This document shows, piece by piece, positions 28,629-38,603 of a DNA stretch of 55,090 bases. The DNA comes from Desulfobulbaceae bacterium (GTDB lineage: Bacteria > Desulfobacterota > Desulfobulbia > Desulfobulbales > VMSU01). Both the position numbers and the translations under genes were made by a program. Where the stretch lies: contig JAQUKQ010000008.1 of the NCBI GenBank assembly GCA_028718985.1, positions 1 through 55,090 on the forward strand, written 5' to 3'. Every line of letters starts with the position of its first letter. Position 1 is the stretch's first letter. Under the pieces are notes generated by a model. That model was not told the DNA's origin, ran no database searches, and worked only from the letters and a program-made list of their open reading frames with translations.

Positions 28629-29735
28629 TTAATCCAGACCAAGTTGGTATTCCGGGGCGATGCCATAGCCCCGTTTTCGATTCAATAAGCCCACCGCCAG
28701 CAGCAAAGTGATGCCAAAGAGGACGGCCACCTGGCCTGCCAGCGGGGTGCCGGCTGGAGTGCCGGCCATGCCCCAGTTCTGGACGAGGGCGGCGCCGACG
28801 AGCATTCCCATGACGGTGATGCCAGCGTCGGTATCTCCCTGCCCGGCGGCGACCAGCTGCCGCAAGGGGCACCCTCGAATAAGGATGGAGCCAAACCCGA
28901 CGAGGAACATGCCCAGGAAGGACCAGCCATAGCTGTCATTAGAACTTGGTTGGCCGTTTAAACCAAAGGAAAATTGACCGGTAAGGAGGCTGGCGATCAA
29001 GGCAAAGCTGAAAAAAGAGCCAAGGCTGATTAAAAGTCCGGTGGAGCGTGGGCAATTCATGACCTCACGCGGCCCCCACAGAAAAAAGCGGGCAATGCCG
29101 CCGGTAACACAAAACTGAGTGTGCTGGGCCCAACCGCCGATAAGGAGGCCAACCCCAAGCGACAGCAGGAATGGGGCGTGCATGGCACCGCCACCTTTAG
29201 CGCTTACACCGATGAAGGAGGGTGTTAGCACGGCAAACACGAGAAGCAGTAGCATGAATACCGGCAACAGATAGCCACTGGCTTGAGGGGTTTCGCTTTG
29301 TTTGCCGAGCTGGAAACCGTTTTCGACAAACTCCAAGCCAAGGTATATGCCAGCCAGCAGTCCGGCAACCCCAACGAGGGCGCCGATGTCGCCCGCCGCC
29401 AGCCGCAAAACCATCTTGACGGGGCAACCGATAAAGACCGAGCAGCCAATAATCAGGAATACGCCGACCATGAAGCGCAAGAGGGGGGAGCTACCGCCAG
29501 TGGTCAAAAACTCCTTGCGGTAAACAGACCAGGCAAAGGCACCGAGGACAATGCCGATGATCTCGGGTCGCAAGTACTGCATCCTCATATTATCGTGCAG
29601 GCCGATAGCACCGGCCAAGTTTTCCATGAAGCAGGAGACGCAGAGGCCGGTGTTGGCCGGATTACCGTAATAGGAGAGGAGCACGGCACCGACACCAATG
29701 ACCGCACCCATCATCACAAACACACTTTTTCGCAT
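28629..29735 (-). CDS. yedE: YedE/YeeE-family transporter, putative selenium or sulfur importer
   Basis: A 368-residue polytopic membrane protein of the YeeE/YedE family: GCPVKMVLRLAAGD and GCPLRQLVAAGQGD are the two internal repeats with conserved cysteine-containing GC motifs, and QFCVTGG is a third Cys site. Members carry thiosulfate or are linked to selenium use. The subfamily that this resembles is called the selenium-metabolism YedE, but I cannot separate the two by eye. An AGGAGG sits ahead of the ATG at 29735. The predicted selenoprotein ArsS in this window is consistent with selenium metabolism. Confidence 0.8.
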   Translation of the reverse strand: MRKSVFVMMGAVIGVGAVLLSYYGNPANTGLCVSCFMENLAGAIGLHDNMRMQYLRPEIIGIVLGAFAWSVYRKEFLTTGGSSPLLRFMVGVFLIIGCSVFIGCPVKMVLRLAAGDIGALVGVAGLLAGIYLGLEFVENGFQLGKQSETPQASGYLLPVFMLLLLVFAVLTPSFIGVSAKGGGAMHAPFLLSLGVGLLIGGWAQHTQFCVTGGIARFFLWGPREVMNCPRSTGLLISLGSFFSFALIASLLTGQFSFGLNGQPSSNDSYGWSFLGMFLVGFGSILIRGCPLRQLVAAGQGDTDAGITVMGMLVGAALVQNWGMAGTPAGTPLAGQVAVLFGITLLLAVGLLNRKRGYGIAPEYQLGLD

Positions 29736-29754
29736 AGGATTGCCTCCTGTCAGT

Positions 29755-30270
29755 TCAGCCGCAACTGCCGGCAATTTTTCGCAACATGTAATAGTACTCT
29801 TTGCGGGCAACCAGCAGGGCGGCGTCAGCGTTATTGGCCGTGAGACCGGTCTCGATCACCAGGCGGGCTTCCTCTACCGTTTTCTTTATTTTTTTCCCCT
29901 GGAAGAGGGGGGATTTCTTGTCCAGAAAATCGGGGTTGAGGTCTACCGCTTTACGATACTCCCGCATTGCCCCGACAGGATCTTGTCGATAGAGAGAGAG
30001 ATCACCACGCAAGAGATAGGGCATTGCCTCAAAGGGATAGGCTTTGATGAGCTCAGTCAGCAGTTGCTCGGCCTTTTCCAGTGTGTTACTGGCAAGCAGG
30101 GACTTGGCCAGGTCGATTTTCTTGTCAAGTGCCGGATCAATCAGCTGCACCGCAAGCCGCTTGGTTTCCCTCTGCTCTTCTTGTTTCTCTGGTTGCGTGA
30201 TCAGCAGAAATAGGCACCATAAGACCAAACCGGTGATGGCCAATGCCGAAAATTTATCAAGTTTGTCCAC
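29755..30270 (-). CDS. Membrane-anchored TPR-like protein
   Basis: A 171-residue protein with an N-terminal helix (ALAITGLVLWCLFLLI) and TPR-like helices (LEKAEQLLTELIKAYPFEAM). It starts with GTG at 30270; there is no clear ribosome site. It lies 19 bases ahead of yedE, and the yedE ribosome site falls in that gap, so both belong to one unit. Partner unknown. Confidence 0.65.
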   Translation of the reverse strand: MDKLDKFSALAITGLVLWCLFLLITQPEKQEEQRETKRLAVQLIDPALDKKIDLAKSLLASNTLEKAEQLLTELIKAYPFEAMPYLLRGDLSLYRQDPVGAMREYRKAVDLNPDFLDKKSPLFQGKKIKKTVEEARLVIETGLTANNADAALLVARKEYYYMLRKIAGSCG

Positions 30271-35853: not shown

Positions 35854-36186
35854 ATGGAAACATACTACCAGCCGGATGACCTGCAGAAATTTGCTGAGAT
35901 CGCCGAGGGTGCCCCAGAGCTGGCTAAGAAGTTTTTTGAATACTATCAGGCGGTTTTCAGTGAAGGCGAGCTGACAGAGCGCGAAAAATCTTTGATTGCC
36001 TTGGCGGTGGCCCATGCTGTTCAGTGCCCCTATTGCATTGATGCCTACACCAAATCCTGTTTGGAAAAAGGCTCCAATAAGGCCGAAATGACGGAGGCTA
36101 TTCATGTTGCAACCGCCATCCGTGGTGGTGCTTCATTGGTGCATGGGGTGCAGATGCGCAATGTCGCAGGGAAACTTTCGTTGTAA
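35854..36186 (+). CDS. AhpD/carboxymuconolactone decarboxylase-family protein linked to arsS
   Basis: A 110-residue helical protein with the redox CPYC motif in AVQCPYCIDAYTK, typical of AhpD-like peroxidase partners. The arsenosugar-biosynthesis-associated subfamily has this size and sits next to arsS, as here (15-base gap). It is likely a redox partner in the same pathway. The ATG at 35854 is chosen because GAGG lies ahead; a TTG at 35848 is possible. The 195 bases before it hold no gene. Confidence 0.8.
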   Translation: METYYQPDDLQKFAEIAEGAPELAKKFFEYYQAVFSEGELTEREKSLIALAVAHAVQCPYCIDAYTKSCLEKGSNKAEMTEAIHVATAIRGGASLVHGVQMRNVAGKLSL

Positions 36187-36201: not shown

Positions 36202-37179
36202 ATGACTGCCATTCTCCCAGGCCGATGGCCCGCTTTTTCCGAGACCTTAGCCAGTCAAGGACTTGTTTTACGCCGGACGCAGGTGCAGACCTTACAGGTC
36301 AATGTCGGGCGTCTCTGTAATTTGGCTTGCCGCCATTGTCATTTGGAGGCTGGGCCAGCTCGTACCGAGATCATGACGAAAGAGACCATGGCCCAAGTCA
36401 TCGATTGTGCCGGACGACTCTCTTTTCCCTCTATCGACATCACCGGTGGTGCTCCAGAGATGAACCCCCATCTTTTGGAGCTTCTGGAAGGGCTTGCCCC
36501 ACACACGCCACGCTTGATCCTGCGCTCCAACCTAGTGGCAATGCAGGGTAATGCCAGATTGGCATTGCTTGAGCTTTGTCGCCGTTTGCGGGTGGTGATT
36601 GTTGCCTCCTTCCCGGCGGTCAACGAGTCTCAGTCCGAATCGCAGCGCGGGGATGGAAACTTTCAGGCGTCAATTGCCATGCTTAAGCGATTAAATGACC
36701 TTGGCTGGGGGAGAGAGGAATCAGGCCTTGAACTCGATTTGGTCTCGAACCCCACCGGGGCTTTTGTGCCGTCTGCGCAGCAGGCGCAGGAGGCGAGATT
36801 CCGGCAGGTATTGCTCCAGAAGTGGGGTATTGTCTTTACCCATTTGTTTTCTTTTGCCAATGTACCGTTGGGCCGATTCAGGCGTTGGTTGTTGAACTCA
36901 GGCAACTATGACGACTACATGGCGACACTGTCTAAGAGTTTCAACCCCTGTGCGCTGGATGGAGTGATGTGCCGCAGTTTGCTGTCAGTGGCCTGGGACG
37001 GCACGCTGTTTGATTGTGATTTCAACCAGGCACTTGATCTGCCTATGGCAGGGTGTCGGCGTCATATAAAGGACCTGACAGCTCTTCCGGAGGCGGGAAG
37101 TTTGATTGCGCTGTCGGATCACTGCTATGCGTGTACGGCTGGGGCAGGATTTACCTGAGGGGGGAGTATTGACTCCTGA
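36202..37179 (+). CDS. arsS: ArsS-type radical SAM protein, probable selenoprotein (UGA at 37156)
   Basis: A radical SAM enzyme with the cluster motif CNLACRHC (C39, C43, C46). Its layout matches the arsenosugar-biosynthesis radical SAM family ArsS, which attaches a 5'-deoxyadenosyl group to arsenic. The frame meets TGA at 37156-37158, directly after HCYACTAGAGFT. Family members continue here with a cysteine-type ending of the form CxxCTAGxGSSCGG. Reading TGA as selenocysteine gives U319-GGSIDS and a second TGA at 37177-37179, 325 residues. A SECIS-like hairpin starts about 15 bases after the UGA. Several members of this family are known selenoproteins. If not Sec, the protein ends at 37158 with 318 residues. 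Confidence 0.85.
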
Positions 37180-37193
37180 GTTCAGGAGGGAGT
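37156..37193 (+). promoter_or_regulatory. Predicted bacterial SECIS element for ArsS
   Basis: After the TGA at 37156-37158, CTCCTG (37173-37178) pairs with CAGGAG (37183-37188) around an AGTT loop. The loop begins 21 bases after the UGA and has G at its second position, as bacterial SECIS elements require. A competing 5-bp hairpin, GGAGT/ACTCC (37163-37176), is also possible. Confidence 0.6.
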
Positions 37194-37241
37194 AACTGTA
37201 GCACTACGTTTCACTCAAATTGTATCAAAAAGGATGAAATC

Positions 37242-38603
37242 ATGAATATTGGATGGACGACGGTCGCAAATGTTGAGGATGCTGAAAGGCTGGCCAGGGA
37301 AGTGGTGATGGCGCATCTTGCAGTCTGTGTGCAGGTCGAGGGAGCAATCAGGAGTTTTTACCGCTGGGATGATGAGCTGACCAGTGCCAAGGAGTATCGG
37401 TTGACTATAAAATTTCTGGCAGAGAATACCGAACGGCTTGAAGCCTGGATCAACGAACATCACCCGTACGAAATTCCTGAATGGCTCGCCATTTCGGCTG
37501 ATCGGGTGCATCCGGCTTATAAAAAATGGGCAGAGGCAGATAGTGAACTTCCTGTGAGTAAGGTAAAGCCGAACAAGGAGGTCTTGCGACTCAGTAAACT
37601 TGGGCGCAGTTATCTGCGGAAACATCTCTACAGTGAGGCGGAATCCGTTTTTCGCGAGGCATTGGAGCTTGACGGACGTAACCCCTATATTCTGGTCGGT
37701 TTAGGAGATACCACCCGTGAATTAAAGAAGTTTGAAGAGTCGATCGCCTACTACGAGAGGGTGCTGGAATTTGATGCGGTCAATGTCTTTGCCTTGCGGG
37801 GGATTGGCGATTCGTACCGGGGGATTTTACAGCATAAACGGGCTATTCCCTATTGGATGCGCTACCTGGATTGCAATAAGGACGATATCTATGTCATGGT
37901 GCGTCTGGCTGAGTCATTTAACAAGACGGGGAATTTCGATAAGGCCGAGGCCTTTTATCTGAGGGCGCTGGAGGTTAACCCGGAAGACAAGTACGCACTG
38001 CTCGGGGTTGGAAGTTTGTACTACAAGGTTGAAAATGATGAGAAGGCGTTGGCTTGTTTTGAAAAACTTTTGAGCCTTGATAGTAGCTATGTCGCGGTGT
38101 TGACCATGGTTGGCAATATCTATCGGCGCCGCAGGGAGTTCGAGAAGGCGGCTGAATATTACGAGAAGGCGACGAATCTCGAGTCGTGGAACGCCTTTGC
38201 CCTCTTTGGCTTGGGGGATTGCCAGCGGGGATTGGCAAATCTTGATAAGGCGGTATTCTGGTGGTCGAAAATCTTAGAGAATGAGCCTCATAATCAAGAT
38301 CTGTTGACTCGGGTCGGTGATGCCATGTTGAATCTCGATAAGCTCGATCAGTCTTTGGAGCATTACATGCGCAGCCTGCAGGTTGGCTTTGACCTGTACG
38401 CCCTGCTCGGCATGTCGAAGTTGTACCGCACCCAGAAAAATTGGTGCGAGGCCGAAAAGGCCTGCCTGCAAATTCTTGAGAAGGTGCCCGGTCACCCTCG
38501 GGCCTTGACTGAGTTGCTAAATGTCTATGAAGGGATGGGTCGAGAGGATAAGATGCGTGACATCCGCCACCAACTTGAAGAGTTAGGGCAGGGGGATGAC
38601 TGA
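37242..38603 (+). CDS. CutA-like domain fused to TPR repeats
   Basis: A 453-residue protein. Residues 1-about 100 match CutA: TVANVEDAERLAREVV, VCVQVEGAIRSFYRWD, YRLTIKF, and HHPYEIPEWLAI. The rest is about nine tetratricopeptide repeats (for example YSEAESVFREALELDG and NFDKAEAFYLRALEVN). CutA proteins are trimers linked to metal tolerance and protein interaction; the TPR arm suggests docking to other proteins. AAGGATG sits ahead of the ATG. It follows arsS by 62 bases, so it may share its transcript. Confidence 0.85.
   Translation: MNIGWTTVANVEDAERLAREVVMAHLAVCVQVEGAIRSFYRWDDELTSAKEYRLTIKFLAENTERLEAWINEHHPYEIPEWLAISADRVHPAYKKWAEADSELPVSKVKPNKEVLRLSKLGRSYLRKHLYSEAESVFREALELDGRNPYILVGLGDTTRELKKFEESIAYYERVLEFDAVNVFALRGIGDSYRGILQHKRAIPYWMRYLDCNKDDIYVMVRLAESFNKTGNFDKAEAFYLRALEVNPEDKYALLGVGSLYYKVENDEKALACFEKLLSLDSSYVAVLTMVGNIYRRRREFEKAAEYYEKATNLESWNAFALFGLGDCQRGLANLDKAVFWWSKILENEPHNQDLLTRVGDAMLNLDKLDQSLEHYMRSLQVGFDLYALLGMSKLYRTQKNWCEAEKACLQILEKVPGHPRALTELLNVYEGMGREDKMRDIRHQLEELGQGDD

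Follow-up and report, generated by a model that had tools for sequence, protein, structure and literature searches.

A predicted selenocysteine form of the arsenosugar-biosynthesis radical SAM protein ArsS in a Desulfobulbaceae bacterium

The data presented in this study indicate that the gene at positions 36202-37179 of the window (the whole stretch of 55,090 nucleotides that was analysed) almost certainly encodes a selenoprotein form of ArsS, with UGA-37156 read as selenocysteine (Sec). The support for this reading comes from sequence comparison and covers family membership, the pairing of Sec with Cys among homologs, conservation of the SECIS hairpin and the Sec machinery of the source genome, which is a draft of ~3.35 Mb in 225 contigs with 93.7% completeness. 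The features discussed below are as follows.

35854-36186, forward strand: AhpD/CMD-fold arsenosugar-biosynthesis-associated peroxidase-like partner, Cys CxxC form (TIGR04169)
36202-37179, forward strand: arsS coding sequence with UGA-37156 as Sec (TIGR04167, PF12345 DUF3641, PF04055 Radical_SAM)
36316-36339, forward strand: radical SAM CxxxCxxC motif, CNLACRHC (C39, C43 and C46 invariant in 35 homologs)
37123-37158, forward strand: C-terminal CYACTAGAGFTU motif with predicted Sec as residue 319 (Cys/Sec column in 35 of 35; C308, C311, G314 and G316 invariant)
37156-37158, forward strand: predicted UGA codon for Sec (29 UGA and 74 Cys codons in 103 loci)
37156-37202, forward strand: predicted bacterial SECIS, stem CUCCUG/CAGGAG (37173-37178 with 37183-37188), loop AGUU (covariance model R1)
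37177-37179, forward strand: predicted true stop TGA, within the SECIS apical stem and loop (from the tail lengths and stops of relatives)

The arsS frame and its in-frame UGA

The open reading frame begins with the ATG at 36202 and meets its first in-frame TGA directly after CYACTAGAGFT. This agrees with the earlier note, which had described a frame halted right after CTAGAGFT and expected automatic annotation to cut the protein at 37158, where automatic gene calling does end. When the TGA is translated as a residue, the frame continues from U319 through GGSIDS to a second TGA (37177-37179), giving a protein of 325 residues. The end given in the earlier note, 37193, exceeds this stop because the hairpin was included. 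Profile searches identified the product as a member of the equivalog TIGR04167 (378.7 bits, cut-off 300), a family that NCBI names "arsenosugar biosynthesis radical SAM (seleno)protein ArsS", and also matched DUF3641 (164.6 bits) and Radical_SAM. The SAM-cluster motif CNLACRHC is present with its Cys residues invariant, and the in-frame UGA falls at a column where homologs carry Cys. In the alignment of the C-terminus with Cys and Sec homologs, column 319 held Cys or Sec in all 35 sequences, as expected from the claim that the TGA sits on the conserved Cys of the family; C39, C43, C46, C257, C272, C308 and C311 were invariant as well.

The comparison was extended to 96 genomes from the organism itself and its genus, family and order. 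A full-score ArsS was found in 23 of the 96, and all of these except G036 had exactly one TGA inside the match; within the genus and family of the window this was true of every genome with a full-score match. One genome of the set (G077) carries three full-score ArsS copies with one TGA in each. Homologous loci that carry the C-terminal motif numbered 103; at position 319 they divided into 29 with U, a count that includes the window's own copy, and 74 with Cys. The two residues preceding Sec were FT in 27 loci and ST in 2, and those preceding Cys were SS in 73 loci and FT in 1. That single FT locus (L021, Geobacter sp. OR-1) uses a TGC codon and reads GFTC-AGAIS, and it is a direct Cys counterpart within the same clade. 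Since it keeps the tail without needing a SECIS, it shows conservation of the tail as protein. The Sec and Cys forms were grouped in a tree with few changes (3), though the direction of change is unsafe to read from this tree because its branches are long. The order also has a second ArsS subfamily, whose Sec forms read GSTU-TG (L100 and L101) and whose Cys form reads GSSC-TG (L102, in G036); no TIGR04169 neighbor of L100 or L101 was found within the flanks searched.

These comparisons bear on two other explanations of the TGA. It could be a plain stop, the last Cys having been lost and the protein ending at FT. Automatic calling terminates there, and with only 6 residues beyond the TGA, truncation would cost the product little of its sequence. 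However, several families preserve the TGA together with the GG-x-I codons that follow, in step with the Cys homologs, a covarying hairpin comes next and the genome has complete Sec machinery, so that a plain stop is very improbable. The earlier note had read the GGSIDS codons as being in step with the family and had named close relatives ending at the same TGA with nothing conserved beyond it as grounds for abandoning the Sec reading; close relatives retain the TGA as well as the GG[S/A/C/T]I codons beyond it. It could also be argued that a Cys-coding gene recently acquired the TGA by nonsense mutation, or that the TGA is an assembly error in such a gene, given that the genome is a draft and that TGC differs from TGA by one base. 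However, the same TGA is found in about 20 other genomes of the order, one of the same genus (L115) included, and comes with a matching SECIS, an element for which Cys forms have no use. This conservation over independent assemblies, as judged by comparison of the loci, refutes a mutation or error, which is the least probable of the explanations considered here.

The hairpin and the second stop codon

The hairpin predicted to direct Sec insertion, CUCCUG-AGUU-CAGGAG, spans 37173-37188 and consists of a 6-bp stem and a 4-nt loop (37179-37182) located 20 nt from the UGA. Published rules for bacterial SECIS elements (PMC13188914) call for a loop of 3-9 nt, a stem of 4-16 bp, a loop 16-37 nt past the UGA and a G within the first two loop positions. 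The window hairpin conforms in distance and stem length, and its AGUU loop has G at position 2 followed by U; the earlier note's placement of an AGTT-loop hairpin at the right distance is thus borne out. Taken alone, the window hairpin is statistically weak. Hairpins of at least 6 bp that satisfy the loop and distance rules follow 24 of the 2030 TGAs in the window (1.2%), and the folding z-score in tight windows was -1.7 to -2.2. The hairpin alone was rejected as proof of Sec because of this background rate. A search of the window against Rfam at gathering thresholds returned no SECIS family.

Covariation was measured and model R1 was built using 17 relatives, with the window left out. Stem pairing in these relatives was 84.9%, compared with 26-53% at slid positions (maximum 52.9%), and there were 12 double-changed cells versus 5.0 in shuffles (0 of 500 shuffles). 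R1 matched the window at 37156-37202 (29.5 bits, E=1.1e-6), a match that begins exactly at the UGA, and genome-wide the same site ranked first (E=6.6e-5, next E=0.07); part of this score comes from coding conservation of UGG(S/A)I, so it supports the whole recoding site and not the hairpin alone. Judged together with its relatives, the hairpin far exceeds chance. A GC-rich hairpin closing a gene could also be an intrinsic transcription terminator. However, no U-tract follows this hairpin, it is absent from the results of the terminator scan, and its spacing from the UGA is fixed in relatives along with a G[G/U] loop. A terminator in place of a SECIS is therefore highly unlikely.

In the window as in the other Sec loci, the predicted stop codon falls within the SECIS hairpin. 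Of the 29 Sec loci, 25 have a 6-residue tail following U, placing the stop seven codons past the Sec codon. The stops of the Sec loci are TGA in 20, TAG in 9 and TAA in none, and TAA is used in 52 of the 74 Cys loci. One proposal is that termination and the SECIS are under joint selection, in that the recoding hairpin must melt before the second UGA acts as a stop; we regard this as unlikely. GC content and the requirement of the stem for G/C may explain the stop-codon bias, which would make it a curiosity only. The second TGA was also considered as a further Sec codon and was rejected, as it lies inside the hairpin, is often TAG in relatives and has nothing conserved beyond it.

Selenium machinery and gene neighborhood

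The earlier note had proposed looking for selA, selB, selC and selD and would have taken a lack of selB/selC as refuting its Sec reading; all four are present in the window's own genome. Profile searches found selB (370 bits), selA (608 bits) and selD (333 bits), and a tRNA-Sec (selC) with anticodon UCA scored 69.3 bits and was also found by ARAGORN. The selD gene (L010, 1477-2529) has an in-frame TGA of its own at the active-site position (CGU-AAK), which suggests that SelD of this genome is probably itself a selenoprotein. An in-frame UGA (CGU) at the active site is common to many bacterial SelD proteins. The earlier note had also taken a YedE-type transporter in the window as agreeing with selenium use. 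A YeeE/YedE-type protein does exist (28629-29810, reverse strand; PF04143, 28.1 bits, cut-off 27), though it belongs to a sulfur-transport family and indicates selenium weakly.

The partner gene upstream of arsS scored 196.2 bits against TIGR04169 (cut-off 120), and a TIGR04169 gene adjoins arsS in 25 of the 29 Sec loci and 70 of the 74 Cys loci. A Sec role for this peroxidase-like neighbor was rejected, as a plain CPYC is present. Farther upstream is zwf, and downstream is a gene for a CutA-TPR fusion; both are common to some relatives. The fusion (37242-38603, forward strand) joins a CutA divalent-cation tolerance domain at residues 5-98 to a TPR array, an unusual domain pairing that adjoins arsS in several Sec loci. 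An exact search of viral contigs gave no match.

Proposed mechanism and relation to known selenoproteins

In the proposed model, SelB-GTP-tRNA-Sec recruited by the hairpin just 3' would decode UGA-37156, Sec319 would take the place of the last conserved Cys, and termination would occur seven codons later at the TGA inside the hairpin. By analogy with the function established for ArsS, CNLACRHC would hold a [4Fe-4S] cluster at which SAM is reductively cleaved, and a carbon-arsenic bond would be made by adenosylating methylated arsenic. The methylated arsenical may be supplied by ArsM, which is encoded elsewhere in the genome as an intact 291-residue ORF on another contig, unlinked to arsS. An AlphaFold2 model of ArsS is confident (pLDDT 86, pTM 0.87), with its last 10-20 residues, Sec included, less certain (55-70). 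Among solved structures, the closest folds belong to radical SAM enzymes of the SPASM/twitch type, including SkfB, ChlB, SuiB and EpeE; this is consistent with a C-terminal Cys-rich region close to the active site, and Sec319 may sit at such a site. Most likely, Sec contributes to the arsenic chemistry as a ligand or reductant that is soft and strongly nucleophilic, or else belongs to the Cys-rich metal or cluster site at the C-terminus.

Sec in this family with this motif has been catalogued before, a point that the earlier note does not make. In the review PMC13188914, the entry "Radical SAM domain protein, TIGR04167, GxxU, AAR34688.1" stands with the predicted selenoproteins of high confidence, its first report being credited to Zhang & Gladyshev 2005; PMC9312934 also includes a TIGR04167 radical SAM selenoprotein. 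The window protein shares with this rSAM_SeCys protein (AAR34688.1) both the family and the GxxU motif, here G-F-T-U, and differs only in species and in the hairpin sequence. Adenosylation of arsenic by ArsS is described in PMC12159101, which cites Cheng et al. 2021. The ArsS described there belongs to the same named family of arsenosugar-biosynthesis radical SAM enzymes, whereas the window protein has Sec at the last Cys; the likeness drawn here is one of family name. The Cys-type ArsS proteins of Bacteroidota (such as L030 and L050) are 41-47% identical to the window ArsS and have the TIGR04169 neighbor in common, but they carry a Cys codon in GSSCQG or GSSCGG, have SS instead of FT before the Cys and mostly end with TAA.

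Because Sec with GxxU is already catalogued for TIGR04167, the call is a correct one for a known kind of gene. The window ArsS is an ordinary additional member of a catalogued selenoprotein family, and the annotation correction is real: the protein should have 325 residues, not 318, with Sec319. With it, a selenoprotein family linking selenium with arsenic metabolism gains a further member, and the two forms of the enzyme, with Sec or with Cys as in the TGC-coded protein of Geobacter sp. OR-1, are natural pairs for probing the role of Sec in a radical SAM enzyme.
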